This document shows positions 3,967-45,024 of a stretch of 64,000 nt of DNA, one piece after another. The notes under the pieces are model-generated. The model was not told where the DNA came from and ran no database searches. It was given only the letters and a program-made list of their open reading frames with translations. A program made the position numbers and the translations under genes. The stretch lies in contig JAPLLG010000013.1 in the NCBI GenBank assembly GCA_026387665.1, positions 310,001 to 374,000 of the forward strand, written 5' to 3'. Position 1 is the first letter of the stretch; each line of letters opens with the position of its first letter. This stretch comes from Nitrospirota bacterium (GTDB taxonomy: Bacteria; Nitrospirota; Nitrospiria; Nitrospirales; Nitrospiraceae).

Positions 3967-4088
3967 CGGCTGCTGAAAATGGCCGCCAACTTCGTTCTCA
4001 TCTCGCAGGAAATCCTCAACGTACCGCAAGGGTGCGCCTCCGGTTTCTGCTCGTCTGCGGCCTCGTTCGCGGCCATTTTGAGCAGCCG
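3967..4088. repeat. Dispersed hairpin element, copy 1 (short form, divergent)
   Basis: A sequence of about 122 bp starting with GCTGCTGAAAATGGCCGCC and ending GGCCATTTTGAGCAGC, so the two ends are inverted copies. The centre has the family's CCTCAACGTACCG block. It is the most divergent of eight copies in the window (others begin near 15716, 17627, 22578, 25089, 31866, 44901 and 50548). It starts immediately after the AIM24 stop codon and could terminate that transcript. Confidence 0.85.
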
Positions 4089-4207
4089 TAATTTGGAAAT
4101 GAACGAGGATAGCGGGATAGTGGGGCATGGGGATAAAGGAATGGATGCATGAGTGAGAAAGTACAGACAGCGTTACCCCGTTATCACTATACCCCGGTTG
4201 CCCCGCT

Positions 4208-11921: not shown

Positions 11922-12141
11922 CCTACGCTCAAGTGAGATGGGCGCGACGGGCGAGCGAAGCGCGATTAGAAGTGTGAAGTCTGGAAAACCTCGAACTTCG
12001 GACTCTTGCGTATGGCGCCCGCCACTCCATAATTTCAGAATGAGTGAAATTGATTGGAGATCGCTTCGATATTTGATACAGTCCGCTTCGGTAAGATCGA
12101 GTGGTTGCTCAGAGCGGCCTGATGGCGGTTGGGTGTGAATA

Positions 12142-13254
12142 ATGGCTAAGGAGGCCGGGGTGGTGATTTCTTCTCGTCTGCTGACGTTCAGTCTGCTGGG
12201 TTTCGTGATGTTGCTTGCGCCAGGCTGTGCGGGGAGAGCCGCCATAGTGCAGTCACAGGAGCGGAGCGACGCGAGTCCGGTCGTGGAGCAGGCCCTTGCA
12301 CCAACCCCCTCGGCGCCACAAGAAGATATTGCTTCGGACAAACTACCTTACAGTTTCGTGAGATCCGATGATAACGATCCCCGGCTTGATCCTTTCGTCA
12401 GGGCCGTCGATCCTTTCGCCAGGGCGAATGAATACTATCCTCTGGAAGCGGAAGAGCAGATTCCTCTATCGGCTTCCATGCTGACCTTTGCGTCGACTTC
12501 TGTGGTGATTCCTGCGTCGACCTCCTCGGTGCCGCAAGATGCGACTCCAGACGAAGCGCTTGATCCTTTTGCCAGGGCCGATGAGGAAGCCGGTGAGGAC
12601 TATGATCCCTGGGAGCCGGTAAACACCCACATCTTCGAATTCAACCGTCAGCTCGATCGATTTGTGCTCAAGCCGGTCGCGAAGGGATATGACTTCCTTA
12701 TGCCGGACTGGGTGCAGGTCAGCATCAAGAATATCTATTATAACCTGCGGTTTCCGCCCCGCCTTTTGAACAATGTATTTCAAGGGAAGTTCAAGGGAGC
12801 CAGTATCGAGGTGGGTCGGTTCCTCGTGAACAGCACGTTAGGCGGAGCGGGGATCGTCGACGTGGCCAAGGACATGGGGCTGGAGACGCCGGAAGAAGAT
12901 GTGGGCCAGACGCTCGGACGGTACGGCGTCAAGCCTGGTCCCTATCTGGTATTGCCGCTGCTTCCTCCCTTTACCGTCAGGGACTTCGTCGGCTTTCTTG
13001 GCGACATTGCCTTGAACCCGATCAACTGGCTGGTCGCTCCGATCGTCGAGGTCAAACACGTTCCTTCAATCATTGCCCACAAGAATCGGATGACATCCAC
13101 GTCGCTCCAACTCGGTGTCCGAATCGAGGAAATGGTGAACGAGCGCTCGATGAACCTTGAGAAATTTCAGGGAGTCGAGGAAGCCACGCTCGATCTTTAT
13201 ACCGCCGTCCGCAACGCCTATTTGCAGAAGCGGGCGAAGGCGATCCGGGAATAG
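12142..13254 (+). CDS. mlaA: MlaA (VacJ) family lipoprotein
   Basis: A 370-residue outer-membrane lipoprotein of the Mla pathway, which removes misplaced phospholipids from the outer leaflet. The signal peptide has a lipobox-like LLAPGC. Residues 30-150 form an unusual extension with degenerate DPFARA-type repeats (DPFVRAVDPFARANE and DPFARADEE). The MlaA domain then begins with YDPWEPVNTHIFEFN and continues through LNNVFQGKFKGA, GRFLVNSTLGGAGIVD and GQTLGRYGVKPGPYLVLPLLPP. No other mla gene is next to it. A palindromic region follows the stop. Confidence 0.92.
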   Translation: MAKEAGVVISSRLLTFSLLGFVMLLAPGCAGRAAIVQSQERSDASPVVEQALAPTPSAPQEDIASDKLPYSFVRSDDNDPRLDPFVRAVDPFARANEYYPLEAEEQIPLSASMLTFASTSVVIPASTSSVPQDATPDEALDPFARADEEAGEDYDPWEPVNTHIFEFNRQLDRFVLKPVAKGYDFLMPDWVQVSIKNIYYNLRFPPRLLNNVFQGKFKGASIEVGRFLVNSTLGGAGIVDVAKDMGLETPEEDVGQTLGRYGVKPGPYLVLPLLPPFTVRDFVGFLGDIALNPINWLVAPIVEVKHVPSIIAHKNRMTSTSLQLGVRIEEMVNERSMNLEKFQGVEEATLDLYTAVRNAYLQKRAKAIRE

Positions 13255-13263
13255 CGCAAAGGA

Positions 13264-13338
13264 GGTCTGTTTGGTCTATCCGGTCTATCTGGAGCAACGA
13301 GATAGACTGAATAGACCGGACAGACCAGATAGACGTTT
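13264..13338. terminator. Imperfect palindrome between convergent genes
   Basis: Repeats of GGTCTATC appear in both orientations, so this can form a long imperfect hairpin. It ends in GTTTTTAT on the plus strand. It sits exactly between mlaA and the converging kbl gene and probably terminates mlaA. Confidence 0.55.
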
Positions 13339-14529
13339 TTATCGGATCACGCCGAGTTCTTTGCCGACCTTCTTGAAGGCGGTGATGGCTCGCTCGAGCT
13401 GTTCTCTCGTATGGGCTGCTGACATCTGCACACGAATCCTGGCTTGTCCTTCCGGTACCACCGGGTAACTGAACCCCACGACATAGATCCCTTCTTCTAG
13501 CAGCCGTTCTGCCATCTTGTTGGCAAGCGACGCGTCACCGAACATGACCGGGATAATGGGATGCTCGCCGGGAATGAGCCGGAATCCGAGCGCGGCGAGT
13601 TGCGCGCGGAAGAAGGTTGCGTTTTCGCACAGCCTGGCCCGTAACTGGTCTCCTTTGGCCACGAGAGTCACGGCCCGTTGCGCCGCCGCGGCGATCACCG
13701 GAGGGAGTGAATTGGAAAAGAGGTAGGGCCGTGATCGTTGCCGCAAGAGCTCGACGATTTCTTTTCGTCCTGACGTAAACCCGCCCGTCGCGCCGCCCAA
13801 TGTTTTCCCCAGCGTGCTGGTGACCATCTCGATCTTGTCCGCGACGCCGAAATGGTCTGGTGTGCCTCGCCCGTTGCGTCCGAGCACCCCGGTCGCGTGG
13901 CTGTCGTCCACGATCACCGCTGCATCGTATCGCTCCGCCAGTTCGACGATGCGATCGAGTTTTGCGAGATCCCCATCCATGGAAAATACCCCGTCCGTCG
14001 CGATGAGGCGAAGCCGGCTGGTGGCCGCCTCGCGCAGTTTGGATTCCAGGTCTGCCATGTCGGAATGGGCGTAGCGGAGCCTGGTTGCCTTGCAGAGCCG
14101 GATGCCGTCGATCAGGCTGGCGTGGTTCAAGGCGTCGCTGATGACGGTGTCTTGCTCGCCGAGCAGCACTTCGAACAGTCCGCCGTTCGCGTCAAAGCAG
14201 GAACTATAGAGGATGGTGTCCTCGGTGCCGAGGAAGGAACTGATCGTCTGTTCGAGTTGCTTATGGAGGTCCTGCGTGCCGCAGATGAACCGGACGGAGG
14301 CCATGCCGTAGCCATGCTCGTGCAGTCCTTCGATGGCGGCCTCCCGGATATCCGGGTGGTTGGCGAGGCCTAGATAATTGTTGGCGCAGAGATTGAGGAC
14401 CTCGCCTTGCGCGACACGGATCTCGGCTCCCTGCGGACCGAGGATCTGCCGCTCGGACTTGTAGAGGCCGGCTGAACGGATGTCCACGAGCCGTTCCGCA
14501 AGAGTTTTTTTGAGTGAGTCGTAGGCCAT
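13339..14529 (-). CDS. kbl: Glycine C-acetyltransferase (2-amino-3-ketobutyrate CoA ligase)
   Basis: A 396-residue PLP enzyme of the alpha-oxoamine synthase family; the start at 14529 gives a length like E. coli Kbl (398), and an in-frame ATG lies 7 codons upstream. It splits 2-amino-3-ketobutyrate with CoA to glycine and acetyl-CoA. Landmarks are [39 protein letters not shown] and the PLP lysine in [11 protein letters not shown]. It lies downstream of tdh on the same strand, 110 bases away, so together they form the threonine-to-glycine route. A length-similar biotin synthase (BioF) is less likely given the tdh neighbour. Confidence 0.93.
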
Positions 14530-14545
14530 TTTCTTAGAGCATACA

Positions 14546-14641
14546 GCCATCAGCGATCAGCTGTCAGCGTTAGTCGAAAAACGAAAACGTTCCATTCCGT
14601 TGGGCCTCAAGCTGATCACTGATGGCTGACAGCTGAAGGCT
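14546..14641. repeat. Short inverted GATCAGCTGTCAGC-type repeats
   Basis: Between tdh and kbl two blocks of related sequence face each other: AGCCATCAGCGATCAGCTG on the left and CTGATGGCTGACAGCTG on the right. They can pair as an imperfect hairpin across the 40 bases between them. The last bases overlap the tdh stop codon. Function is unknown; it may attenuate kbl. Confidence 0.6.
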
Positions 14642-15674
14642 ACGGAAAGAGGACCACCTTGCCGCACTGTCCTGAGTTGATCAACTCAAACCCCTGCGCG
14701 AAGTCTTTCATGGGAAAGGTATGGGTGATGATCGGTTTGATGTTGAGTCCGGCCTGGAAGAGACCGGCCAGGCGATACCAGGTTTTAAAGAGTCGGCGGC
14801 CTGTCACGCCGTATACGCGGATGCCCTTGAAGATAATTTCATTCGGCAGATCGAAGGACACGGACCCGGTGGGAATGCCGAAGAGCGTCACGCGGCCTCC
14901 GTTCTTCACGGCGCTGAAGGCTTGGTGCAACGCGGTCGGGTTGCCGGACATTTCGAGGGAGGCATCGACCCCTTCGCCGGCTGTGATCTCGCGAATGGCG
15001 GCGGCGATTTGTTCCGGGGTTTCGGTCTTGGCATTGAGCACGTGATCAACCCCGACTTGCGTGGCCAGGTTGAGACGGTAGGCGCTGACATCCGTGGCGA
15101 TGATCAGGGAGGCGCCGGCTGTTCGTGCGACAGCGGCAGCAAACAATCCGGTCGGGCCACAGCCGGTGATCAGGACGGTCTGCCCCGTGAGATCTTCCAC
15201 GAGGGCGGCATCGACGGCGTTCCCGAGCGGCTCTTGGGCACAGGCCAGTTCCGGTGGAATAGAGAGAGAAGTTTTCCAGAGCACGGCTTCCGGCAAGACC
15301 ACGTATTCCGCGAAGGACCCGTCCAAATCGACTCCCAGGATGCGGTAATTTTTGCAGACATGCGCCTGTCCGGTGCGGCATTGGAAACAGTGGCCACAGG
15401 TTAAGTGCGATTCGGCCGCGACATAGTCCCCCACTTTGACTAAGGTGACCTCGGACCCGACCTCCACCACTTCGCCGCACATTTCGTGACCGATGATCCT
15501 GGGCGGGTGGATGCGGCTATGGGCCCAGGGGTCCCAATTGTAAATGTGGGCATCGGTCCCGCAGAGGGAGGTAGCTTTGACGCGGATAATGGCATCGGTG
15601 CGGCCCGGTTTCGGGTCCGGCCTGTCAGTGGCGGTCAATCCCGGTTGTGCGGATGTCTTGACGAGCGCACGCAT
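14640..15674 (-). CDS. tdh: L-threonine 3-dehydrogenase
   Basis: A 344-residue zinc-dependent MDR dehydrogenase that oxidises L-threonine to 2-amino-3-ketobutyrate with NAD. The catalytic zinc Cys is in LCGTDAHIYNWD, with GHEMCGEVVEVG and the structural zinc cysteines in CGHCFQCRTGQAHVC. The Rossmann motif is TGCGPTGLFAA. Length and motifs match E. coli Tdh (341). It is upstream of kbl in the same orientation. The ATG at 15674 begins MRALVKT, a normal family start. Confidence 0.94.
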   Translation of the reverse strand: MRALVKTSAQPGLTATDRPDPKPGRTDAIIRVKATSLCGTDAHIYNWDPWAHSRIHPPRIIGHEMCGEVVEVGSEVTLVKVGDYVAAESHLTCGHCFQCRTGQAHVCKNYRILGVDLDGSFAEYVVLPEAVLWKTSLSIPPELACAQEPLGNAVDAALVEDLTGQTVLITGCGPTGLFAAAVARTAGASLIIATDVSAYRLNLATQVGVDHVLNAKTETPEQIAAAIREITAGEGVDASLEMSGNPTALHQAFSAVKNGGRVTLFGIPTGSVSFDLPNEIIFKGIRVYGVTGRRLFKTWYRLAGLFQAGLNIKPIITHTFPMKDFAQGFELINSGQCGKVVLFP

Positions 15675-15715
15675 GCCCCCATTGTATACTAGCTGCTCGA
15701 TTCCGCCTACCCCGC

Positions 15716-15841
15716 CAGGATGCTGAAAAAGTCCGCCAGCTTCGTTCTCGGCTCATCGAAATCCTCAACGTACCCTCAGGGGTACGCCTCCGGTGCTTCC
15801 ATCGGCTGCGGCCTTGCTGACGGCCTTTTTGAGCATACTGC
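15716..15841. repeat. Dispersed hairpin element, copy 2 (short form)
   Basis: About 126 bp bounded by CAGGATGCTGAAAAAG on the left and CTTTTTGAGCATACTG on the right. It contains the family core CCTCAACGTACC with a GTACC/GGTAC inner hairpin. It fills the gap between divergent tdh and the TonB-like gene. Confidence 0.92.
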
Positions 15842-15976
15842 GGAGGTGAGCAATTTCTCTCCAAGACGCGTAGGTCTTTGAAGTTCTGCCATGTTGCAAT
15901 ACGTTTTCGTCGTCTGCCAGGGTTGGAGGGACGACGAGGTTGCGCCAGGGTTCGCGAGATCGGTAGGATGCGACCT

Positions 15977-16966
15977 ATGAAGGCGCTGCACCACCGAATC
16001 CTTGTGTTGTTGGCAGGGCTGTGTTGTGTGGCCAGCTCCCTCCTCCTCTCACCAGTTTTTTCAGCCTCCTTGCCGCAGCCTGTTTCTTCGTCCAGCTCTA
16101 TGAAACGGTGGGTGCAGTTCGAGTTGAACCAACCGGAGTCGATGGGGGACCAACAGGCCGGCAAGCCAGTCACGCTGACGATATTTCTTCGTGGGTTGGC
16201 CATTGGGAGGGCTCCGGTGGTCGCGACCTGTGAATCGAAGGTGTTTTATACGCAAACGGTCACGCTTGAGCCGGATGCCGCGTCGCTGGTGTGGAAGGGG
16301 GCGGTCACGCTTGAGCCGATTCCGATGAGCCGGACTTCCGTGTCACCCAAGGCGGCGCGAGTCCAAGTGACCTTCTCGCGATCCCGTTCAGACAAAGCGG
16401 AACGATTTCTCCGGCGGGTGGTCTATGTCACGCTGGATCAGACGGAGCCGATGAGTGAGAAGCGTGAGTCGCTTCCTGTTCAGGGCGAGGCATTGCCGGG
16501 CGAGGGTGTCATTGTGGAGGAAGTGCAGCAGGCTGTGACGCCGGTTGTGGCCCACGCCTTGTTCGAGGAAGATCTAGGCTCGCGCGCCTTATCGGGAGAG
16601 AAGAAGGCTTATTGGCAGCAGGTAAGTCAACTCATCAACCGGAGTTGGGCCCGCCATGTCCGGGGAGTCCGGCATGCCCCTAGCGGCGAAACGGTAAAGG
16701 TCCGTTTCAAATTGTATCCCAACGGTCGGGCGCAGTTGATCGAGGTTGAGAAGGGTTCCGGCGCGCGTGAGATCGATGAAGCCGGAATTCATGCGGTGGT
16801 CCATGCTCAACCGTTTCCCTCATTTTCTGCCGAGCTGGGGGATGGGCCAGTCGATGTGCATGTCCGGATGCGAACCGGCCGTCGGGTCGGGCCCCTTGAA
16901 GTGGAGTCGGTCGGGAGCCCGTTGCAGGGCAAGTCCGATGGGCCGGGACAGCCGTTGAAGAAATAA
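15977..16966 (+). CDS. TonB C-terminal domain protein
   Basis: A 329-residue exported protein. The ATG at 15977 follows AGGA by 8 bases and begins a signal or anchor segment (ILVLLAGLCCVASSLLL). Residues 30-170 are beta-rich and unassigned. Residues about 220-310 are a TonB C-terminal-like domain: YWQQVSQLINRSWARHV, GETVKVRFKLYPNGRAQ, ARE-IDEAGIHAVVHAQPFPSF. Lacking the Pro-rich spacer of true TonB, it may be a TolA- or TonB-like periplasmic adaptor. The nearest gene downstream is YceI, 51 bases away. Confidence 0.75.
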   Translation: MKALHHRILVLLAGLCCVASSLLLSPVFSASLPQPVSSSSSMKRWVQFELNQPESMGDQQAGKPVTLTIFLRGLAIGRAPVVATCESKVFYTQTVTLEPDAASLVWKGAVTLEPIPMSRTSVSPKAARVQVTFSRSRSDKAERFLRRVVYVTLDQTEPMSEKRESLPVQGEALPGEGVIVEEVQQAVTPVVAHALFEEDLGSRALSGEKKAYWQQVSQLINRSWARHVRGVRHAPSGETVKVRFKLYPNGRAQLIEVEKGSGAREIDEAGIHAVVHAQPFPSFSAELGDGPVDVHVRMRTGRRVGPLEVESVGSPLQGKSDGPGQPLKK

Positions 16967-17017
16967 ACCATAACCAGTTCAGGCTCGTAGCCATATATTT
17001 TCCCAAGGAGGAGATCC

Positions 17018-17629
17018 ATGCGGCAGAAGAGAAAAGAGAGTTGGTTCCTGTTCCTGTGGTTCGGAGCGATGGTCTGTTTTCCACTCACAGTTCAGGCAGA
17101 GCCCGCCCGTTGGAACGTAGATCCTGACCATTCGACGGTGGAGTTTCGTGTGGCCCATATGGTCGTCTCCAAGACGACCGGCCGGTTCATGGATTATGCC
17201 GGGTTTATTGATATGGATGCCGAAGCCGGGACCGTGAAAGCGATCGAAGCCACGATCAAGACGTCGTCGGTGAACACGAATCATGAAAAGCGGGATGCGC
17301 ATTTGCGGAATGCCGACTTTTTCGATGTGGAACGGTATCCGACGATGACCTTCAAGATGAAGAGTTACAAGAAAACTGAAGAGGGTTACACGGCGCAGGG
17401 AGACCTCACGCTGCATGGGGTGACGAAAGAGATTACACTTGCCGGCCATTATAATGGGGCGACTAAAGATCCTTGGGGCAATACCAGGGCCGGGTTCAGC
17501 GCAGAGGGAAAGCTCAATCGCAAAGACTTCGGCATGGTCTGGAATAAGACGTTAGATAGCGGCGGGCTCGTCGTCGGCGACGAGGTCCAGGTCCGGCTCG
17601 ATATAGAATGTATCAAGGCGAAGCCATAG
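17018..17629 (+). CDS. YceI family periplasmic protein
   Basis: A 203-residue protein with a strong AAGGAGGAG ribosome site and a signal peptide ending VQAEPA. The mature part is a lipocalin-like YceI barrel: RWNVDPDHSTVEFRVAHM at the start, ATIKTSSVNTNHEKRDAHL, and DLTLHGVTKEITL near the end. Members bind isoprenoid lipids. The TAG stop at 17627-17629 is the first three bases of a dispersed repeat element, so the repeat defines the end of the protein. Confidence 0.93.
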   Translation: MRQKRKESWFLFLWFGAMVCFPLTVQAEPARWNVDPDHSTVEFRVAHMVVSKTTGRFMDYAGFIDMDAEAGTVKAIEATIKTSSVNTNHEKRDAHLRNADFFDVERYPTMTFKMKSYKKTEEGYTAQGDLTLHGVTKEITLAGHYNGATKDPWGNTRAGFSAEGKLNRKDFGMVWNKTLDSGGLVVGDEVQVRLDIECIKAKP

Positions 17630-17755
17630 CAGGACGCTGAAAAAGTCCGCCAGCGTCGTTCTCGCCTCGAAAGCATCCTCAACGTAGCCAGGGGCTACGC
17701 CTCCGGTGCTTCCGTCGGCTGCGGCCTTGCTGGACGGCCTTTTTGAGCGTCCTGC
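17627..17755. repeat. Dispersed hairpin element, copy 3 (short form)
   Basis: About 129 bp from TAGCAGGACGCTGAAAAAG to CTTTTTGAGCGTCCTGC. Paired changes at both ends (GACGC against GCGTC) keep the terminal stem intact, which supports a selected or recently copied hairpin. Its TAG is the YceI stop codon. Confidence 0.93.
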
Positions 17756-17819
17756 AGGGCTTTGGCCTGCTCGCACGTTGTTGTTGGTCGGTGGTTCATC
17801 TTTCCGAGGGCGATCAATC

Positions 17820-18821
17820 ATGAAGGCGATGGTCTTGGCGCGCACAGCGGAGGTGGAAACTGCCCCGCTGCAGCTTCGCGAGCTTCCCATGCCTGAGCCT
17901 GGCCCTGGGGAGGTTTTGGTTCGTCTCACTGTTTGCGGGGTCTGCCGGACGGATCTTCACGTCATCGAAGGCGAGTTGGCCAACCCCAGGCTTCCGCTCG
18001 TTCCCGGCCATCAAGCAGTCGGGATCGTGAGCCAGGTTGGCGCCGGCGTGAGTGAACGGAGGGTCGGGGAGCGGGTCGGCATCGCCTGGCTCCAGCAGAC
18101 ATGCGGCACCTGTGAATTTTGCACGAGCGGGCGTGAGAACCTCTGCGAACGCGCCAGGTTTACCGGCTATCAGGTCGATGGAGGCTACGCAGAGTATGCG
18201 CTCGCCCCGGCGGCATTTGTCTACCCGATTCCACCGGTCTTCAGTGATGAAGAGGCGGCTCCGCTCCTCTGTGCCGGGATCATTGGCTACCGTGCCTTGC
18301 GCCTGAGCGGCATTCAGCCGGGACAACGGCTCGGCCTCTATGGGTTTGGAGCCTCCGCTCACATTGCCATTCAGATTGCTCGTCATTGGGACTGTCAGGT
18401 CTATGTCAGCTCGGTGAAGCCGGAGCATCAACGGCTCGCCCGTGAGCTGGGTGCCGCCTGGGTAGGCGGGGTGACCGACAGGCCGCCGGACAAGCTCCAC
18501 GGTTCGATCATCTTTGCGCCAGCCGGCGAATTGGTTCCGCCTGCGTTGCGATCACTGGAACGAGGCGGTACGCTCGCCCTCGCTGGCATTCACATGACGC
18601 CGATTCCCTCGTTGGATTACGACCGCGAGGTCTTTGGAGAGAAGGTTATTCGAAGCGTCACGGCCAATACGAGGCAGGACGGGCTCGATCTCCTGCGTGA
18701 GGCTGCGGCGATTCCGATCAAACCCAGGACCCTGTCCTTTCCCCTCGCCGAGGCCAACCGCGCCTTGCAAGAGTTGAAGGCCGGACGTTATTCGGGAGCC
18801 GGCGTGCTCATCCTCTCGTAA
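17820..18821 (+). CDS. Zinc-dependent alcohol dehydrogenase family protein
   Basis: A 333-residue MDR oxidoreductase; the ATG at 17820 starts MKAMVLARTAEVE. The catalytic zinc site is in CGVCRTDLHVIEGEL with GHQAVGIV, and the structural zinc cysteines are in CGTCEFCTSGRENLC. The nucleotide-binding motif is LYGFGASAHIAIQ. It resembles AdhP/AdhA-like zinc alcohol dehydrogenases; the substrate cannot be assigned. It is 64 bases downstream of a dispersed hairpin element and 29 bases upstream of the next gene. Confidence 0.9.
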   Translation: MKAMVLARTAEVETAPLQLRELPMPEPGPGEVLVRLTVCGVCRTDLHVIEGELANPRLPLVPGHQAVGIVSQVGAGVSERRVGERVGIAWLQQTCGTCEFCTSGRENLCERARFTGYQVDGGYAEYALAPAAFVYPIPPVFSDEEAAPLLCAGIIGYRALRLSGIQPGQRLGLYGFGASAHIAIQIARHWDCQVYVSSVKPEHQRLARELGAAWVGGVTDRPPDKLHGSIIFAPAGELVPPALRSLERGGTLALAGIHMTPIPSLDYDREVFGEKVIRSVTANTRQDGLDLLREAAAIPIKPRTLSFPLAEANRALQELKAGRYSGAGVLILS

Positions 18822-18850
18822 CCAATCCAGCAGAAAGTAAGAAGAGGTCT

Positions 18851-19462
18851 ATGATAGGATTTCCCGCCATGCGTCAGACCTGTCTCACTTTCTTAATTGC
18901 CTGTAGCCTGTTGCTCGCCGGCCTGCCGGCCTGGGCGTTGGAGTTTACTGCCGATCAGGTCACCAAGATCGATGGCCGAACGCATAAGGCTATCATCTAT
19001 TACCGCGATCAGATGTGGCGGATCGAGCACCATACGATGGGGCCGGTGAACGTCAGTATCGTGCGGAAGGACAAGCAGGTCGTCTGGCTGCTGCTCTCGC
19101 GGATGAAACATTTCAAGACGCTGCCCTATAGTCCTGAGCAGGACCTCAGAGTCAGTGAACAGCTGGAGGGAGAAGTCTCGCGGCAGGAGATCGGCACGGA
19201 AGTGCGCGAGGGGCATCCGACGATTCTGTATGAAGTGACGACGAAGCAGGGGGAGTTGGTCGAGGCGTACTATCAGTGGGTGGCCACGGACATTCATTTC
19301 CCGATGAAGCTGGCAAGGAAAGACGGGAGCTGGATCGTGGAGTATCAGCATGTGAAGCTGCGGTCCGTGTCGGACTATCTTTTCAACCTTCCGCTCAATT
19401 TTCATCCGTTGGAAGATTTTAAGAAGCAAGAAACGCCGGAGCCTGTCGGGCCCGGCATGTAA
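18851..19462 (+). CDS. Exported LolA-like protein of unknown function
   Basis: A 203-residue protein with a signal peptide ending WALEF and an AGAGG site upstream of the ATG. The mature sequence is rich in alternating strands (KAIIYYRDQMWRIEH, VSIVRKDKQVVWLLL) and resembles LolA/DUF4412-like outer-membrane lipoprotein-carrier folds. It lies between an alcohol dehydrogenase and an FGE-like gene on the same strand. Its fold is an inference; no catalytic motif is apparent. Confidence 0.65.
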   Translation: MIGFPAMRQTCLTFLIACSLLLAGLPAWALEFTADQVTKIDGRTHKAIIYYRDQMWRIEHHTMGPVNVSIVRKDKQVVWLLLSRMKHFKTLPYSPEQDLRVSEQLEGEVSRQEIGTEVREGHPTILYEVTTKQGELVEAYYQWVATDIHFPMKLARKDGSWIVEYQHVKLRSVSDYLFNLPLNFHPLEDFKKQETPEPVGPGM

Positions 19463-19482
19463 CGTAGCAAGGAGGCTGGATC

Positions 19483-20379
19483 GTGCGAGCATTAGGAATC
19501 ATCGTCAGTGTTGTGATTGCAGGAGTAATCGGAATCAGCGGATCGGCCCATGCGTTGGATGTGTCCGATGTCGTTCGGGAATGGACTCCCGAGGGCAAGA
19601 AGCTCGCGATCGAGCGGGCGAAGTTGCCGGCTCATGACGAGATGGTCCGGATTCCCGCCGGGCCCTTTCTGATGGGGAGCGACAGGAAGGTAGACCGCAA
19701 TGCCTACTCGGCAGAGCTCCCTCAGCGGACAATCCATCTCGACGCATACGAGATCGACAAGTTTGAAGTGACCACGTTGCAATATTTGAAGTACATCCTG
19801 GCCAAGGATCTGCCTCCGCTTATCGATTGGCAGTACGACGGTGGCAATTTCCAGGAGACGATGGCCAGCCATCCTGTGATGCATGTGTCCTGGGCCGATG
19901 CCGATACTTACTGCAAGTGGGCGGGCAAACGCCTCCCGACGGAGGCGGAATGGGAAAAGGCGGCGCGCGGCGAAGACGGGCGCATTTACCCTTGGGGCAA
20001 TCAGCCGGCCGGCTTATCCCGTGCGAACTTCGGTCGAACCGGTTTGTCCGGTCCGGTGCGCGATCGTCCTGAGCGGCTGCTGCTCTATCCGCCGATCATT
20101 TCCGTGGACAAATACGACAATGCCGTCGGTCCCTATGGCACGTTCCAGATGGCGGGGAACGTGGCCGAGTGGGTGGCGGACTGGTACGACAAGGAATATT
20201 ACAAGACCGCGCCGGATCGAAATCCCAAGGGGCCTGAGAAGGGCACCCAGAAGAGCTTCCGTGGCGGAGGCTGGATCGACAGCACGCCCAGCGTGCGGGG
20301 CGCGCAACGGAACGGAACGGAACCCAATACCAAAATGAACTGGATGGGTTTTCGCTGCGCGAAAGACGTAAAGGAATAG
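19483..20379 (+). CDS. SUMF1/FGE-fold exported protein, copy 1
   Basis: A 298-residue exported protein starting at GTG with AGGAGG upstream; signal peptide ends AHALDV. The SUMF1/EgtB-type domain (C-type lectin-like) runs from MVRIPAGPFLMGSD to GFRCAKDVKE. Landmarks: FEVTTLQYLKYI, MHVSWADADTYCKWAGKRLPTEAEWEKAARG, YPWGNQ and GNVAEWVADWYD. At the position where formylglycine-generating enzymes have SYxCxxxxC, this protein has GGGWIDSTPSVRG with no Cys, so it should not be a sulfatase activator. Role unknown. A paralogue is on the opposite strand at 21669-22505. Confidence 0.88.
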   Translation: MRALGIIVSVVIAGVIGISGSAHALDVSDVVREWTPEGKKLAIERAKLPAHDEMVRIPAGPFLMGSDRKVDRNAYSAELPQRTIHLDAYEIDKFEVTTLQYLKYILAKDLPPLIDWQYDGGNFQETMASHPVMHVSWADADTYCKWAGKRLPTEAEWEKAARGEDGRIYPWGNQPAGLSRANFGRTGLSGPVRDRPERLLLYPPIISVDKYDNAVGPYGTFQMAGNVAEWVADWYDKEYYKTAPDRNPKGPEKGTQKSFRGGGWIDSTPSVRGAQRNGTEPNTKMNWMGFRCAKDVKE

Positions 20380-20391
20380 CGACGCGCAGGT

Positions 20392-21237
20392 CTAGGCTGA
20401 TTGCTTTTGCTGAAGAAGAGCCTGGGCCTGCTCGCTGGCTTCTTTGACCAGGATGCCCATTTTCGAGTGGGAGGGTTCGAAGTCGACGGGGAGATGGTAA
20501 TGGCGGAGGCGTTCGCTGGCGGTGGGGCCAATGGACGCCACGACCATTTTTCTGCAGGCTTCTGTGAACTGTGCGATGGCGCCGTCCTGTTCGAGTAACT
20601 GCATCACATGATCGATCTGCGCGGCGTTGGTGATCAACATCACGTGAACCTGTCCCGCAAGAATCTCGCCGAGCACCTGCCTTAACGGGCCCCTGTCTTC
20701 CGGGAGCGTCCAACGGTAAATGGGCACGGGAAAGACGTCTGCTCCACGCTGCTTCAGGGATTCCACGAGCTCAGGGTTGGATATGCCATATTCTTGCACC
20801 GCGACGCGCAGGCCCTTGAGGGGCCGGTAGGAGTCCAGCGTAGCGAGCACTTCCACCCAGGTATTCGGTTCCGGCACGGTGAGTGTCGGGGTGATGCCAT
20901 GGGCCTTGAGTGCCGCAGCAGGCTTGGGGCCGCGAGCGACGGTTATCGTCCGCTTGAGCCCATCCAGGATCGACGGCAGGGGATGGCGCGATTGGAGAAT
21001 GTCGAGGAGGGCGGTGGCGCCGACTCCCGTCATGAGGATCAGGAGATCGATCTGTCCGCCGATCAATTCGTCGCCCAAGCGCAAGGCGGCGGGATTATCC
21101 TGAATCGGAATTTCCTGGAGGGCAGGAGCCACGAGAGGCCGTCCGCCACAATGTTCGATCAGCCGGGCCATCTCCTTGGCCATACGGCTTTCGAATGATG
21201 CGACGCTAATTCCAGCAAAGCCTGTTTCTTTGGTCAT
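20392..21237 (-). CDS. hemD: Uroporphyrinogen-III synthase-like protein
   Basis: A 281-residue two-lobed protein of the HemD family, which closes and inverts the hydroxymethylbilane ring in tetrapyrrole synthesis. Landmarks: ISVASFESRMAKEMARLIE at the start, LILMTGVGATALLD, ARGPKPAAALKAHGI, VAVQEYGISNPELVESLKQRGADV, HVMLITNAAQIDHV and VASIGPTASERLRHYHLPVDF. HemD is poorly conserved, but the alternating-lobe pattern fits. It is not next to other hem genes here. It is the last gene of a minus-strand group after the four-helix-bundle gene. Confidence 0.85.
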   Translation of the reverse strand: MTKETGFAGISVASFESRMAKEMARLIEHCGGRPLVAPALQEIPIQDNPAALRLGDELIGGQIDLLILMTGVGATALLDILQSRHPLPSILDGLKRTITVARGPKPAAALKAHGITPTLTVPEPNTWVEVLATLDSYRPLKGLRVAVQEYGISNPELVESLKQRGADVFPVPIYRWTLPEDRGPLRQVLGEILAGQVHVMLITNAAQIDHVMQLLEQDGAIAQFTEACRKMVVASIGPTASERLRHYHLPVDFEPSHSKMGILVKEASEQAQALLQQKQSA

Positions 21238-21248
21238 AGCTGCGAATT

Positions 21249-21283
21249 AGAAATGCAAAATTAAAAATGCAAAAAGTGAAAAG
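21249..21283. repeat. A-rich ATGCAAAA repeat, left flank of the four-helix-bundle gene
   Basis: Two ATGCAAAA units (starting 21253 and 21267) lie between the hemD start and the four-helix-bundle stop. A matching block in inverted orientation lies at 21651-21690. The pair brackets the small gene precisely. Confidence 0.75.
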
Positions 21284-21285
21284 AA

Positions 21286-21666
21286 CTAGGCTCTGGATGT
21301 CTTCTTTACTTTTGAGATGATCGCTCCAAGGATCTTGGCGAGTTCCGAAGCTTCTTGCTCCAGAAGCTCTAATGAATCGGTTGTCGCAATGCCGGATTCG
21401 CGAATCAATCTAAGCCAGTAGCCCGTTTCGCGCGCTTTCTTGAGCGCGATGGCCATTTTACTCACGAAGTCGGCTTTACTCTGACCGGCTTGAGCTTCTT
21501 CAACGTTAGCCCCGATCGAGGTTCCGGATCGCAGGAGTTGGAGAGACAGACTCCTTGATGCGCCAGAAGTTCGCTCGAGGCCTCTGCACAGTTTGACGAT
21601 TTGTAGGGCGAACGAGAACGTGCGTTCGACGATGTCCGCTCGGCCCCCTACTTTTTCATTTTGCAT
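21286..21666 (-). CDS. Four-helix-bundle protein (S23 / 23S rRNA intervening-sequence family)
   Basis: A 126-residue helical protein of the four-helix-bundle (IVP/S23) family. The ATG at 21666 gives the usual start MQNEKVGGRADIVERTFSF; longer frames upstream run into the FGE-like gene. Family landmarks: RSGTSIGANVEEAQAGQSKADFVSKM and KARETGYWLRLI. The family was first seen in intervening sequences of 23S rRNA and is also scattered singly in genomes; Avd of diversity-generating retroelements is a structural relative. Here it is between two genes and is flanked by inverted ATGCAAAA repeats that also supply the ending of the upstream FGE-like gene. Molecular role unknown. Confidence 0.9.
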   Translation of the reverse strand: MQNEKVGGRADIVERTFSFALQIVKLCRGLERTSGASRSLSLQLLRSGTSIGANVEEAQAGQSKADFVSKMAIALKKARETGYWLRLIRESGIATTDSLELLEQEASELAKILGAIISKVKKTSRA

Positions 21667-21690
21667 TGTTACTTTTGCATTGTGGCATCC
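21651..21690. repeat. A-rich ATGCAAAA repeat, right flank of the four-helix-bundle gene
   Basis: On the minus strand this block reads two ATGCAAAA-type units. One supplies the last codons and TAA stop of the FGE-like gene (21669-21671); the next is the start codon of the four-helix-bundle gene (21664-21666). It is the inverted counterpart of 21249-21283. Confidence 0.75.
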
Positions 21691-22505
21691 AGCGCGCAGC
21701 GGAATCCCGTGGACTCGTTGCGGATCGTCGGATCGCTGTCCACGCGGGTGAAGATGCGGACTGTCGGGGTCTCGTTCTGCCAGCCTGCTCCCCGAATGAC
21801 TTTCTTGATTCCGCTGTCCGGCCCTTGGGGGTTCTTTGCCGGGCTCTTCTCGTAGTATCGGGCGTCGTACCAGTCGTTGACCCATTCCCAGACGTTGCCG
21901 GCCATGTCGTAGGCGCCGAAGGGGCTCTTGCCCAATTCATAGCTGCCGACCGGCATCAAGGTTTTTTCGCCGGTCCATTGCTGATTGAAGTTCAGATGTT
22001 TGTTCGTGGGCTCGACATTGCCCCAGGGGAATCGCCGGTCGGCTATGCCCTTGGCCGCCTTTTCCCATTCCGCTTCGGTCGGGAGGCGTTTGCCCGCCCA
22101 CTTGCAGTAGGCTTCCGCGTCGAACCAATCCACATTGATGACGGGCCGGTCGGTCATCGTGTCGGTGATGGCCTCGCCCTGCCAGAGATTTCTCGTCGGA
22201 TTTTTAGGGTTCTGCGGGCCGCGATGGCCTGTGGCTTTGACGAACCCCAGATAGCGGCCGTTGGTCACTTCGAATTTATCGATAAAGAAGGTGTCCACAA
22301 ACACGTCATGGCGCGGATACTCATCGCGCCCGCCATCCCGGTCCCCATGCGGGACCCCCATGGGAAAGGAGCCGGCCTGGACCTCGACCATCGGCGCGCC
22401 GTCTTTACCCGTCGGGGTCTTGGTCGGTTGGTCGGCGGCGAAGAGCGGGGATTGGTTCATCGAGAGGCAGAGCAGGGTCGCAACAAGAATCAATCGAAAA
22501 GACAT
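21669..22505 (-). CDS. SUMF1/FGE-fold exported protein, copy 2
   Basis: A 278-residue protein; the ATG at 22505 follows an AAGGAG site and starts a signal peptide (ILVATLLCLSMNQSPLFA). The FGE-type domain runs from MVEVQAGSFPMGVP to GFRCALD, with FEVTNGRYLGFVK, INVDWFDAEAYCKWAGKRLPTEAEWEKAAKG, FPWGN and GNVWEWVNDWYD. The region equivalent to the active-site cysteines reads IRGAGWQNETPTVR and has none, as in copy 1. The last residues (ATMQK) come from the A-rich repeat, so the original C-terminus may have been replaced. Role unknown. Confidence 0.88.
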   Translation of the reverse strand: MSFRLILVATLLCLSMNQSPLFAADQPTKTPTGKDGAPMVEVQAGSFPMGVPHGDRDGGRDEYPRHDVFVDTFFIDKFEVTNGRYLGFVKATGHRGPQNPKNPTRNLWQGEAITDTMTDRPVINVDWFDAEAYCKWAGKRLPTEAEWEKAAKGIADRRFPWGNVEPTNKHLNFNQQWTGEKTLMPVGSYELGKSPFGAYDMAGNVWEWVNDWYDARYYEKSPAKNPQGPDSGIKKVIRGAGWQNETPTVRIFTRVDSDPTIRNESTGFRCALDATMQK

Positions 22506-22577
22506 GGCGGTGAACTCCTTGTTCAAGATCGAAAGCGGCCTCATCGTACCATAGCGGGAAGCGGAAGCGCAGCAGCC

Positions 22578-22782
22578 TAGCAGGATGCTGAAAAAGACCG
22601 CCAGCTTCGTTCTCGCTTCGCTCAGACCCTCAACGTACCCTCCGGGTACGATTCGGCCCTTCGCTCGCTGCGGCCTTGCTGGACGGCCTTTTTGAGCATC
22701 CTGTGGCGATTGCGGTTCCAGCACTGCGCGAAATATTTTCGCTATATTCCCCGCGCACACCGAGTTTTTCCGCAGCCTGCTA
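22578..22782. repeat. Dispersed hairpin element, copy 4 (long form)
   Basis: A 205-bp copy from TAGCAGGATGCTGAAAAAG to GAGTTTTTCCGCAGCCTGCTA. The first 126 bp are the short form; the remaining 79 bp are shared with copies 5 and 6. Outer ends are inverted (TAGCAGGATGCTGAAAAA against TAGCAGGCTGCGGAAAAA) and both are flanked by C/G to give CTAG. It lies between the divergent FGE-like and VOC genes. Confidence 0.92.
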
Positions 22783-22888
22783 GACGGTGCAGAGAGTCCA
22801 ATGGTCCTCCTCGTCCCCCTTGGGTTTTTAATTGACGGAGCCGAGGTGGCTCCCTACTATACGGGCACGATTACAATAGGGGTTAGCC

Positions 22889-23329
22889 ATGGCTGTTCCG
22901 CTTCATCGAGGATTACGACATGTGGCGCTACGCGTCACGAATCTTGCTCGTTCCCGCACGTTCTACGAACAGTTGTTGGAGATGCAGGTGGTGTGGGAGC
23001 CGGACCAGGACAATGTCTATTTCAGCTCCGGCTCGGACAATTTCGCCTTACACCAGATTCCACCATCAGAGCTGGCGGCCTATCAACCGCTGAAGGGGCA
23101 ATTGCTGGATCATGTTGGCGTCATTCTTGAAAGTCCCGAGGCAGTCGATCGGATGTATCGGGAGATTGAACCGCGCCTGCCGCAGCTGGGCGGACTGGTC
23201 GTGAAGCAGCCGAAGCAGCATCGAGACGGCAGCTATTCGTTTTATTTTTCCGACCCGGACGGGAACGTTATCCAGGCCCTGTATGAACCGAACATCAGCA
23301 AGCTGGAATGGGTAAAGGGTAAAACGTGA
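22889..23329 (+). CDS. VOC (glyoxalase/dioxygenase superfamily) protein
   Basis: A 146-residue single VOC unit with two beta-alpha-beta-beta-beta repeats: GLRHVALRVTNLARSRTFYEQLL at the start and GQLLDHVGVILESPEAVDRMY in the middle. The metal ligand positions are His in LRHVALRV, His in LDHVGVIL and Glu in IQALYEPN near the end, as in glyoxalase I-type enzymes. The substrate is not predictable. AGGGG precedes the ATG by 7-11 bases. The MBL-fold gene follows 52 bases later. Confidence 0.85.
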   Translation: MAVPLHRGLRHVALRVTNLARSRTFYEQLLEMQVVWEPDQDNVYFSSGSDNFALHQIPPSELAAYQPLKGQLLDHVGVILESPEAVDRMYREIEPRLPQLGGLVVKQPKQHRDGSYSFYFSDPDGNVIQALYEPNISKLEWVKGKT

Positions 23330-23381
23330 AATGTAATTCAGCCGCACACCTTTCACGTCTCACGCTTCACATTTCGCGATC

Positions 23382-25013
23382 ATGAAAATCTGGGACAGCC
23401 TGCCGAAACATCAGTATCTCAGTCTGGCGCCCTGGTCCTGGGTGCAATTGGAGAGCGCCGAGGCTCCTGGGCCCTTTCCCTTTGTCGCAGGGGTGGCGCC
23501 GGAAGTCGTTGCCAGTCTCCAGGAAGCCCACAGCCTTCTCTCCAGCTCGATTGATACGGCCATTAGCGATGTCTTTTCCAAACGGGCTCCGGTGGACGAT
23601 CCGGATCGCCAGAGACGATTGGAAGATGCCTATGCGGAAGTGATCAGCACTCGCCCCTATCTGCAACAGCATATTCGCTGCGGGCGAAAGCCTGACGGTA
23701 CCTTTCAATGGGAGTTTCCGACCGACCCCACCAAATCCGCCACGGTCACCAACGGCGGGCTCAGGATTTTCCATTCCGTCAAGCGGCAGGCCATTCCGAT
23801 CGGGTTCGATCAGCGCCAGTTGGGGCCGTTGGTGGGAAAGGTGTTGGGGTTGCTGGACGGCACGCATCAGACCGACGAAATTCGAACAGTGGTGGCGACT
23901 TCGGGGCGGGATGGAGAACGAGTCCTCACGCGACTGATGGAAGCGCTGCACCAGCATGAATGTTTGGTCAGCGCGGACACCTCTTCCGTCCGGTCCCGCT
24001 GGTTCGAGACCCTGCAAGATAAAGATATGCTCCATCTTGGGCATGCCGCATTGCTGTATCGGCAACGGGACCAAGCCTTGCTGTTCGATCCCTGGCTGCT
24101 TCCCTGGTTTGCAGAGTCTTCCATCCCCTCGCTCTGGGGATCGCTGCTGCCCAAGCCAGCTGCCGTATTTTTGACCCATGATCACGACGACCACGTGGAC
24201 CCTCGCACGCTCTTACACCTGCCTAAAGAGACGCCCATCATCGTGCCGAGCCGAAGGAATCGCCGCATTCTGTCCTATGATTATCTGTCGCTCTTGCGAG
24301 AGTTGGGATTCGGCAATGTGATTGAATTGGCGCATGGGGAGAGTTGGGCCTTCGAGGGAGGGGCGGTCTACTCCGTGCCCTTCTACGGCGAAGACCCCTG
24401 CGACCTGGAAATGCCGCGCAACTGTTATCTCATTGCCGACCGGGGCTACAACGTGCTCGTGCATGCGGACAGCGGCCCAACGAACAGCGGCAAGTCCGCG
24501 CTCAAGGACGGAGTGATCCAGGCGCTCGTGCAGAAACATGGGCCGATTTCTCTGGTGCTTGCCTCGCAACAACAGTTGCTCGAAGTCCGTGGCCATGCGG
24601 CTCACGCGCCTCTGTCCCATCCAGGCAAATGGCTCGACGTGGGAGAAAACGGCTATCTCACGAACTCGTACCTGGCCGAGGTCTGTGCTGCGGCGAAGGC
24701 CACACTCTTCGTGTCCTATGCCACAGGCGGCGCAGACTGGTATCCAGATCATCTCTCGTTCATGTTCAGTAAACGAAATCCCGCCCGCACGGCCTTGTTG
24801 ACGGCCCACTGGGAACGGCCGGAAGCGCTCAAGGATCTTCTTGCTCCCAAGGGATGCGGGTATCATTGCGGTCAGGCTCTGGATCTGTTTCGCGGCACGG
24901 CCGACGGGCTGGTGATGCCGATGAAGACCGGGGAGGCTTTGACGCCTCTGTCCCTCTACCGGCTCGACCATGGCGACCCTCCCTTCATGAAGGCCGGCAG
25001 CCCATATCGCTAG
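23382..25013 (+). CDS. MBL-fold metallohydrolase with an N-terminal winged-helix-like domain
   Basis: A 543-residue protein. Residues about 240-480 form a metallo-beta-lactamase fold with the zinc motif HDHDDHVD (in AVFLTHDHDDHVD) and later His residues in LVHADSG and HGPISLVL. Residues about 130-205 (IGFDQRQLGPLVGKVLGLLDG, RVLTRLMEALHQHECLV) resemble the small winged-helix PqqD/RRE-type or regulatory domain seen in some peptide-modifying proteins. The combination is not one I recognise. No signal peptide. The TAG stop at 25011-25013 is the end of a repeat element. Confidence 0.72.
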   Translation: MKIWDSLPKHQYLSLAPWSWVQLESAEAPGPFPFVAGVAPEVVASLQEAHSLLSSSIDTAISDVFSKRAPVDDPDRQRRLEDAYAEVISTRPYLQQHIRCGRKPDGTFQWEFPTDPTKSATVTNGGLRIFHSVKRQAIPIGFDQRQLGPLVGKVLGLLDGTHQTDEIRTVVATSGRDGERVLTRLMEALHQHECLVSADTSSVRSRWFETLQDKDMLHLGHAALLYRQRDQALLFDPWLLPWFAESSIPSLWGSLLPKPAAVFLTHDHDDHVDPRTLLHLPKETPIIVPSRRNRRILSYDYLSLLRELGFGNVIELAHGESWAFEGGAVYSVPFYGEDPCDLEMPRNCYLIADRGYNVLVHADSGPTNSGKSALKDGVIQALVQKHGPISLVLASQQQLLEVRGHAAHAPLSHPGKWLDVGENGYLTNSYLAEVCAAAKATLFVSYATGGADWYPDHLSFMFSKRNPARTALLTAHWERPEALKDLLAPKGCGYHCGQALDLFRGTADGLVMPMKTGEALTPLSLYRLDHGDPPFMKAGSPYR

Positions 25014-25216
25014 CAGGCTGAGGGAGACTCGGTATACGCAAAAGGCTGGGTAGAAATATTTCATTTGGCGTTGAAGCCAGAATAACCACAGGATGCTCAA
25101 AATGGCCGTCCAGCAAGGCCGCAGTCGATGAAAGCACCGGAGGCGTAGCCCCTGGCTACGTTGAGGATGCTTTCGAGGCGAGAACGACGCTGGCGGACTT
25201 TTTCAGCATCCTGTTA
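25011..25216. repeat. Dispersed hairpin element, copy 5 (long form, reverse orientation)
   Basis: A 206-bp copy. It begins TAGCAGGCTGAGGGAGACTCGG (a worn long-form end), has CAGGATGCTCAAAATGGCC at 25089 where the short form starts, and ends CTTTTTCAGCATCCTGTTA. Its first TAG is the stop codon of the MBL-fold gene. The epimerase gene begins 18 bases beyond. Confidence 0.92.
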
Positions 25217-25234
25217 GATCGATAAGGATTGATT

Positions 25235-26266
25235 ATGGCCATACGCAAGACAGAACAAGCTCCGATCCTCGTGACCGGCGTTGCAGGATTTATCGGTTTT
25301 CATACGGCGATCAGATTGTTGGAGCGAGGCGAGAAGGTGATCGGGCTCGACAACGTCAATGACTACTATGACGTGAGACTGAAGAAGGCGCGGCTGACGA
25401 AGCTGAAGCCCTTCAAACAGTTCACCTTCACCAAGACGGATCTGGCGAACCGGGTGAAGATGCGGAAGCTCTTTGCCGAACAGCCGATTGCGAAGGTGGT
25501 CCATCTGGCGGCGCAAGCCGGCGTGCGTTATTCGTTGGTGAACCCCCATGCCTATACGGACAGCAACATCGAAGGGTTTTTGAATGTTCTGGAAGGCTGC
25601 CGTCACGCGAAGGTGCAGCACCTTGTCTATGCCTCGTCGAGTTCCGTCTACGGCGGCAATACCCAGATGCCCTTTTCCATTCATGACAATGTGGATCATC
25701 CGGTCTCGCTCTATGCGGCCAGCAAGAAGGCCAATGAACTCATGGCCCATTGCTACGCGCATCTCTATCGGATCCCCTGCACGGGCTTGCGGTTCTTTAC
25801 GGTCTATGGACCCTGGGGTCGGCCCGATATGGCTCTCTTCATTTTCACGAAGGCGATTCTGGAAGGGAAGACAATCGAGGTCTACAACCACGGAAAGATG
25901 CGCCGCGACTTTACCTATGTCGATGACATTGTCGAGGGGGTGATCAGGACCCTCGACCATCCGGCCAAGCCGAACCCTGCCTGGTCCGGCGATAAGCCCG
26001 ATCCGGGAACCAGTTCAGCGCCGGCTAGGATCTACAATATCGGCAATCACCAGCCGGTTGAGCTGCTGCGCTTTATCGAGGTGTTGGAGCAGACGATCGG
26101 GAAAAAGGCGAAGAAGAAACTGTTGCCGATTCAGCCCGGTGATGTGCCCGCGACGTACGCCGATATCGAAGACTTGTCGCGGGATGTCGGATTCAAGCCA
26201 GCCACACCTATCGAGGTGGGGATTCCCCGTTTCGTGCAGTGGTATCGGGAGTTCTATAAGGTATAA
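25235..26266 (+). CDS. NAD-dependent UDP-sugar 4-epimerase (UDP-glucuronate type)
   Basis: A 343-residue extended SDR protein; the ATG at 25235 follows AAGGA and gives [15 protein letters not shown]. Landmarks: [18 protein letters not shown] (NAD motif), [32 protein letters not shown] and the catalytic YAASKKANE. The [12 protein letters not shown] stretch is typical of UDP-glucuronate 4-epimerases, which supply UDP-galacturonate for surface polysaccharide. The matching supplier, UDP-glucose dehydrogenase, is at 54397-55722. Not in an evident polysaccharide cluster. Confidence 0.92.
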
Positions 26267-30832: not shown

Positions 30833-31258
30833 GGAAAAAGGAGGGACGCACGTGAGAGGACCAGCCTGGCTGTGAATATAGCGAGCAGGTCATAGAACGT
30901 CAAGCCAGCTGGCGAGCGGTCGTCTGCCCAGTCTTCCATTACGCGCGTCCCAACCCCATCCTCCACTCCATTTTTTAGGCCAGGTTGCCTGGGTGGTCTC
31001 AACTGTGCGCCTCGCAGGACTGCATTTTTGCTTTCCATCTTGCGCGATCCTTTGCGTCTTTTGGCGGGGTGGCCTGCTGGTCTCCCATTGCGCGCGTCCA
31101 ACGAGGGCCTTCTGAGGCCGCGCGTTGCGCGAGCACAGGAGACCAGCAGGCTACCCCGCTCCCTTCCCTTCCTTGACAAGAAAAAGAAGCGGAGACTATA
31201 GTCAAAACATCATTGAAACCGCTGTATTCACGCGAGTCTGACTGAAAAAGAGGGCGTT
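30833..31258. other. Non-coding gap with a palindromic repeat
   Basis: About 425 bases between the Rieske oxygenase and the DsrE-like gene. It holds a palindrome of about 99 bp at 31063-31161 and a partial relative at about 30980-31020. No protein was supported; several open frames cross it only because it is GC-rich. Confidence 0.5.
31063..31161. repeat. Palindromic repeat, family B copy 1
   Basis: A long inverted repeat with arms GCGGGGTGGCCTGCTGGTC and GACCAGCAGGCTACCCCGC. The reverse complement of its centre matches the centre of 39033-39123 with few differences (CTCGCGCAACGCGCG, CTCAGAAGG, CTCGTTGGACGCGCGCA). It lies in the gap after the Rieske oxygenase. Confidence 0.85.
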
Positions 31259-39032: not shown

Positions 39033-39123
39033 GGGTGGCCCGTTAGTCTCCCTTGCTCGCGCAACGCGCGCCCTCAGAAGGACCTCGTTGGACGCGCGCA
39101 GTTGGAGGCTAAACGGGCCACCC
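39033..39123. repeat. Palindromic repeat, family B copy 2 (possible polA terminator)
   Basis: A 91-bp inverted repeat with arms GGGTGGCCCGTTAGTCTCC and GGAGGCTAAACGGGCCACCC. The centre matches 31063-31161 in opposite orientation, while the outer arms differ but keep pairing. It lies 68 bases after polA and 100 bases before the NTPase gene. Confidence 0.85.
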
Positions 39124-44900: not shown

Positions 44901-45024
44901 GCAGGATGCTGAAAAAGCCCGCCAGCATCGTTCTCGCTTCGCTCAGAGGCTCAACGTACCGCAAGGGTACGCCTCGCCTCTTCGCTCGCTGCGGCCTTGC
45001 TGACGGGTTTTTTGAGCATCCTGC
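44901..45024. repeat. Dispersed hairpin element, copy 7 (short form)
   Basis: A 124-bp copy from GCAGGATGCTGAAAAAG to TTTTTGAGCATCCTGC with a perfect outer 10-bp stem. It lies between the 423-residue gene and the small exported protein, both on the minus strand. Confidence 0.93.

Follow-up and report, generated by a model that had tools for sequence, protein, structure and literature searches.

Genes of the PF05635 family encode the "23S rRNA intervening-sequence protein" (IVP), a four-helix bundle. REP hairpins and their RAYT (TnpA-REP) transposases combine a small gene with cognate palindromic repeats that are also dispersed without the gene, and cyanobacteria carry STRR, heptamer repeats of unknown origin. 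No established function of a PF05635 protein was found in the literature. In the 23S rRNA intervening sequence (IVS) of Coxiella, three tandem GACAGAT heptamers stand just before the S23p ORF (PMC4990558). The homology of Avd to PF05635 has been noted (PMC10053308), and the family is listed in DGR and CRISPR screens (PMC10053308, PMC10910872). Tandem heptamers have also been described as TAACTGA in Beggiatoaceae (PMC4679880) and as GGGAATC in Xanthomonas and GGGGATT in Nostoc, with 70 convergent pairs in one Xanthomonas genome (PMC4692102); in the available sections of both papers their spread is left unexplained. Our search, which covered few subscription journals and preprints, returned no paper tying PF05635 genes generally to heptamer arrays. 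The nearest precedent is the set of Coxiella IVS heptamers, which the available part of that report does not generalise (PMC4990558).

The window locus

The window, a 64,000-nt stretch of a Nitrospirota genome, contains the following features.
21286..21666, minus strand: IVP gene, PF05635/TIGR02436 four-helix bundle, 126 aa (profile match, AlphaFold model, PDB match 2RLD)
21653..21681, minus strand: upstream (5') arm, AATGCAAAAGTAACAATGCAAAATGAAAA in gene sense, containing the FGE stop and the IVP start codon
21252..21282, plus strand: downstream (3') arm, the other half of the inverted repeat (predicted RNA fold pairs both arms)
21669..22508, minus strand: FGE-sulfatase-domain host gene (PF03781), whose 3' end bears the insertion (stop codon 21669-21671 within the arm)
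20392..21237, minus strand: hemD (PF02602), downstream neighbour of the insertion
14544..14628, unstranded: gene-less heptamer hairpin of TCAGCNN type between two genes (lag-7 self-match 0.69 and 0.58)
23320..23375, unstranded: gene-less heptamer hairpin, GTGAAAN-like (by eye; outside the 14 hits of the window scan)

An earlier note on this DNA had described two oppositely oriented A-rich blocks with two ATGCAAAA units each around the small gene, and the positions were confirmed: 21253-21260 and 21267-21274 on the plus strand, 21659-21666 and 21673-21680 on the minus strand, plus two stray sites. The resulting count of six in the window compares with 1.93 expected and was reached in 2 of 100 shuffles. 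Together the two blocks form the best inverted repeat of such geometry in the window, scoring 41 against 30 for the runner-up elsewhere (1263 positions scanned), and both the inverted-repeat scan and the predicted RNA fold describe them as complementary ends forming a stem. The right block does supply the FGE stop and the start of the small gene, as the note had said: the IVP ATG (21664-21666) lies two bases from the FGE stop, and both codons are inside the block. The FGE C-terminus reads RCALDATMQK* here and RCALTPAAQ* at an empty site in a relative (L176). The protein matches PF05635 at 77 bits (cut-off 33.8) and TIGR02436 at 96.3 (cut-off 24); the ORF of the element gave PF05635 alone at E <= 0.001, with no known nuclease or transposase domain, and window positions 12000-26000 gave no Rfam match.

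Other hairpins occur in the window. The left array of the one at 23320-23375 contains the stop codon of a glyoxalase-like gene (22889-23329). A gene-less hairpin at 13264-13326, between convergent genes, has a unit of roughly 9 nt (GGTCTATCC) and is possibly of a related type that differs in period. Another hairpin, about 120-160 nt long (GCAGGATGCTGAAAAAGNCCGCCAGC ... GCTGGACGGCCTTTTTGAGCATCCTGC), is dispersed in at least six copies, at 3966-4089, 15709-15847, 17621-17762, 22563-22719, 25088-25214, and 44901-45024; it is not heptameric and forms a repeat family of its own. Two long hairpins at 31064-31159 and 39033-39123 have common GTTGCGCGAGC/GCGCGTCCAACG-like arms.

Empty and occupied FGE-hemD spacers in relatives

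The note had read the locus as a compact unit inserted at the end of the FGE-like gene and had proposed comparing the FGE and hemD loci of relatives. We searched 32 genus genomes for hemD, obtained matches in 30 at E 0.001, and retrieved 30 loci (L172-L201), of which 27 were usable after exclusion of one without a hemD match on recheck (L201) and two with missing upstream sequence (L190, L200). The arrangement was not identical in all relatives: at seven loci (L174, L176-L180, L188) the small gene is absent and FGE is followed directly by hemD, with a stop-to-start spacer of 8 nt. An IVP gene of the same type, 61-100% identical, occupies the spacer at four loci (our own, L173, L175, L182), and a different subfamily (40-43% identity) with different arms occupies it at three (L181, L183, L199). 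At L191 an IVP gene adjoins hemD and the FGE match is absent. At L189 an FGE gene and an IVP-like stretch, recognised by eye and possibly in the same reading frame, precede hemD; the stretch appears to lie inside a 426-aa hemD reading frame and is possibly a domesticated or decayed copy. The other 11 loci lack an upstream FGE match over 60%, and three of them (L194, L195, L197) show by eye a gene-less TTTGGTT-type hairpin. The spacer is thus a repeatedly hit target. At this exact site insertion is more likely than loss, since the seven relatives without the gene keep an identical 8-nt spacer. The insertion claim of the note is thus backed by these empty sites as well as by the general layout across loci described below.

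A normal gene under vertical inheritance, flanked by A-rich sequence only by chance, would agree with the orthologue common to our genome, L173, and L175 at 95-100%. The seven empty sites, together with the inverted-arm and lag-7 statistics across loci, rule out this reading, to which we give practically no weight.

The IVP protein and its structural relatives

An alignment of 147 family proteins revealed invariant S41, E48, and E71 (147/147; L012 numbering), along with Q34 and N45 in 146 and R37 in 144; the divergent window protein retains all six. Its AlphaFold model shows four helices (pLDDT 89). The closest solved structures are 2RLD, the best match, and 2GSC, each with five chains, and Avd follows, alone and in the DGR RNA-protein complex, at a Z of about 15, while unrelated bundles reach up to 12.8. 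By analogy with 2RLD, 2GSC, and Avd, the window protein is probably pentameric. The DivGenRetAVD profile was not listed for it, and the IVPs of L017 and L083 scored 29.7-29.8 bits against a cut-off of 80. A single-query search for IVP genes in phages gave no match.

The Avd fold brings up a retroelement-like explanation, in which IVP would act as Avd with a reverse transcriptase in trans and the hairpin RNA would be copied to DNA. The sense orientation of the elements (below) and the related elements known in rRNA (PMC4990558) also speak for it. However, our genome (99.8% complete) gave no PF00078 match to a reverse transcriptase, although a close relative lacks its element, and we regard this explanation as very unlikely.

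Inverted arrays around PF05635 genes

The genome under study holds five PF05635 copies, and such genes were present in 116 of the 147 genomes of its family. To each locus we assigned an arm score, the best inverted repeat between 300 nt upstream and 300 nt downstream of the IVP gene. The family set comprised 75 loci, namely our five and the best-scoring ones from 116 hit-bearing genomes, and was thus not random; 65 of the 75 scored at least 27 and 56 at least 30, compared with 2.2% and 0.6% of 695 controls of the same geometry. A wide set took the best 80 of 588 loci and spanned many bacterial phyla as well as some archaea; of its 78 usable loci, 67 reached 27 and 63 reached 30 (controls: 2.4% and 1.3% of 1554). 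Loci below 27 numbered 10 of 75 in the family set and 11 of 78 in the wide set, the clear failures in the latter including L099, L116, L124, L131, L151, and L167. All 12 plasmid loci, taken from 36 hit-bearing plasmid records, scored at least 29; two of them represent the same site, and this group had no control set. After removal of one plasmid duplicate, the pooled set held 164 loci (L072 and L092 were both kept, though apparently the same element), and 143 of them, from Nitrospiraceae-type genomes, cyanobacterial plasmids, and many phyla, passed 27.

Most of the other four-helix-bundle genes covered, among which the note had suggested looking for the same flanks, share the inverted arrays and not their sequence: ATGCAAAA is not shared, and each gene has its own repeat. 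As an element signature, ATGCAAAA was rejected, with IVP subfamilies carrying their own repeats. The note had also reasoned that its repeats at many loci without the gene would speak against a cassette. Pairs of ATGCAAAA do occur at two further places in the genome, both of them gene-less hairpins, and because these have the same layout they modify the cassette claim rather than refute it.

Within the 143 passing loci, self-match of the arms was 0.50-0.60 at lags 7 and 14, compared with about 0.24-0.31 in controls, and at lag 7 taken singly 0.53-0.60 against 0.26-0.31; it was 0.29-0.40 at lag 8, where some arms matched best, and hardly any was seen at other lags. Arms mostly have 3-6 units, with a mode of 4-5, and a period mostly of 7 and sometimes of 8. 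In 124 of 143 upstream arms, G outnumbers C on the sense strand. Arms match better in register (0.85) than with units shuffled (0.76), so hairpin pairing itself may matter.

After pairs with homologous flanks had been dropped, 4-mer similarity of the arms rose with protein identity from about 0.10 at 40-50% to 0.23 at 60-70% (332 pairs) and 0.47 at 70-80% (17 pairs). The correlation (r = 0.145) was reached in none of 2000 permutations, whose maximum was 0.074, and the reverse-strand control was flat and low. For example, a verrucomicrobial element (L156) and two on cyanobacterial plasmids (L083, L087), with proteins 72-76% alike, have a common CAGGAGT-like unit. The defining feature is an inverted array of about 7-nt units, the sequence of which tracks the protein subfamily despite unrelated flanking DNA.

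Gene-less arrays

Three successive TCAGCNN units gave 1935 matches in 126 of the 147 genomes, compared with two matches in total for the reversed pattern, and three GTGAAAN units gave 263 matches in 67 genomes. Of the facing TCAGC pairs among the matches listed, 19 of 20 had the polarity of gene-bearing elements. Genomes with a TCAGC-type IVP (at least 60% identity, n = 13) held more TCAGC matches (p = 4e-5), and those with a GTGAAA-type IVP (at least 70% identity, n = 8) held more GTGAAA matches (p = 9e-4), while comparisons of each IVP type with the non-cognate repeat were not significant overall. The TCAGC link held outside our genus (p = 1.5e-4) and the GTGAAA link within it (p = 0.0036); within the genus, TCAGC copy number was unrelated to the presence of a TCAGC-type IVP (p = 0.47). 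Repeat-protein specificity is imperfect within the genus, because genomes with a TCAGC-type IVP are also richer in GTGAAA matches there (p = 0.027). Our own genome has 20 TCAGC matches, yet no TCAGC-type IVP match at E 1e-20.

The loops of the retrieved gene-less hairpins are mostly unrelated (5.62 versus 5.34 shuffled; 171 pairs), and MITE-like copying of one master hairpin is for this reason unsupported. Six TCAGC gene-less hairpins of one genome (G016; L217-L222) have unrelated loops, with TCAGCGATCAGC as the first core pair in five; simple master copying is hard to square with them. One pair (L232/L234) has by eye a common but different C/G-rich hairpin.

Hairpins that move alone or by a host enzyme, or that grow by slippage, with the IVP gene as a passenger in some, would be in keeping with these unrelated loops and with gene-less arrays outnumbering IVP genes. 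A passenger, however, need not match its repeat, yet protein and repeat covary strand-specifically amid unrelated flanks, and the IVP gene recurs within such arms across phyla, which makes this explanation distinctly improbable.

Plasmid sites, landing position, and orientation

Nostoc-type plasmids offered filled and empty versions of the same sites. At site A, Trichormus carries the element (L083), and N. linckia and N. carneum, with flanks 97-98% alike, have an empty site (L202, L203); Nostoc C052 retains an internally deleted version (L204), and Brasilonema has a heptamer hairpin that lacks the gene (L205). Site B is filled in L086 and L212, empty in L206 and L207, and gene-less in L208, and site C is filled in L087 and empty in L209 and L210. 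At sites A and C, a 5-8-nt sequence including the stop codon of the upstream gene was seen by eye on both sides; a general target-site duplication was not found across 129 loci (mean 4.10 versus 4.02 by chance). In L081, L085, and L089, IVP elements lie within CRISPR-cas operons of cyanobacterial plasmids, between cas6 and cas4 or between cas10 and a cmr3-family gene, and such insertion may explain the "CRISPR-linked" label of IVP.

With neighbours called mechanically at 133 loci, both have the direction of the IVP gene in 95 and both the opposite one in 3. At 121 of the 133 the upstream neighbour runs in sense, its stop at a median of +1 nt of the arm, and at 97 of these 121 the stop lies 10 nt or less before the arm start, or later. 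In 38% of upstream arms each of the three frames contains a sense stop (12% in shuffles, 20% on the other strand), which is a tendency only.

These positions raise the question of a self-regulating unit, in which IVP would bind the array in its own mRNA for translation control or transcript protection, the unit being spread by ordinary recombination and horizontal transfer. TRAP, which binds spaced triplets, is a known protein of comparable habit. The arrays abut start and stop codons, their orientation is strongly sense, the repeats are protein-specific, and Avd-type pentamers occur in an RNA-protein complex (8UB7 and related entries, by title), all in agreement with such a role. It leaves unexplained the many gene-less facing arrays of the same polarity, as well as the filled, gene-less, and decayed versions of one site. 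We consider it a real possibility, though an unlikely one.

Proposed explanation and its meaning

The explanation that we favour, and hold to be probable, is a mobile element of minimal size, about 0.4-0.5 kb, in which a single IVP gene is flanked by inverted arrays of about 4-5 units each, heptamers or sometimes octamers, and an Avd-like pentamer would recognise its own arms. The data are consistent with a protein that keeps the unit mobile and has its own repeated word as recognition sequence; both the recognition of the array and the part of IVP in movement are what we infer from them. The pentamer would bind successive units of its array, as single-stranded or hairpin nucleic acid, with one subunit per repeat unit, and this binding would serve to insert or copy the hairpin at the 3' ends of genes. 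IVP may also move gene-less hairpins in trans. Neither 7 nor 8 is divisible by 3, so a stop-containing array would end the upstream reading frame in any phase, making insertion at gene ends tolerable. Counting against this explanation are the negative duplication test, the mostly unrelated loops, the TCAGC copy number that does not track the cognate IVP within the genus, the lack of a known nuclease or transposase domain, the loci scoring below 27, and the better match of arms in register.

More tentatively, and with somewhat less than even confidence, we suggest a separate class of prokaryotic mobile elements that have neither a known transposase nor a reverse transcriptase. Their Avd-like protein, a pentamer, would read its own 7-8-nt word, one per subfamily, and write arrays at gene ends. 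Such a class would be the source of many orphan bacterial and archaeal heptamers, with the rRNA IVS as a special case.

IVP thereby gains a testable candidate ligand, its own heptamer array, together with a natural specificity panel, and the old idea of the 23S rRNA IVS as a mobile element becomes open to experiment. The heptamers known from Beggiatoaceae, Xanthomonas, and Nostoc acquire a possible source. The element may also account for the surfacing of PF05635 in CRISPR-linked and DGR-linked gene screens.

Comparison with known systems

The ORF-bearing 23S rRNA IVS of Coxiella and Leptospira resembles the window element in its protein family, its stem-forming complementary ends, and its length of about 430 nt. 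The window element differs in lying in the FGE-hemD spacer at a stop codon rather than in an rRNA helix, in a heptamer identity that tracks the protein subfamily, and in gene-less forms dispersed in the genome; on the favoured reading it generalises the IVS layout to operon spacers. DGR Avd (PDB 4DWL, 8UB7) is similar in its four-helix fold (Z about 15), whereas IVPs reach about 30 of the 80 bits set for DivGenRetAVD (L017/L083) and our genome has no reverse transcriptase hit. With REP-RAYT systems the element has in common a small gene with cognate repeats that are also dispersed alone, but IVP has no reported Y1/HUH transposase domain, and heptamer arrays take the place of a single palindrome. 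Insertion sequences likewise have terminal inverted repeats, as the window element does, while a known transposase is absent from it. The orphan heptamers (STRR, TAACTGA, GGGAATC, GGGGATT) are, like the IVP arrays, intergenic, tandem, and near gene ends; unlike them, TAACTGA, GGGAATC, and GGGGATT are linked to no protein in the available sections of their reports (PMC4679880, PMC4692102). The IVP structure 2GSC comes from Xanthomonas campestris, and we propose a possible link through IVP for the orphan heptamers, those of Xanthomonas and Beggiatoaceae among them.
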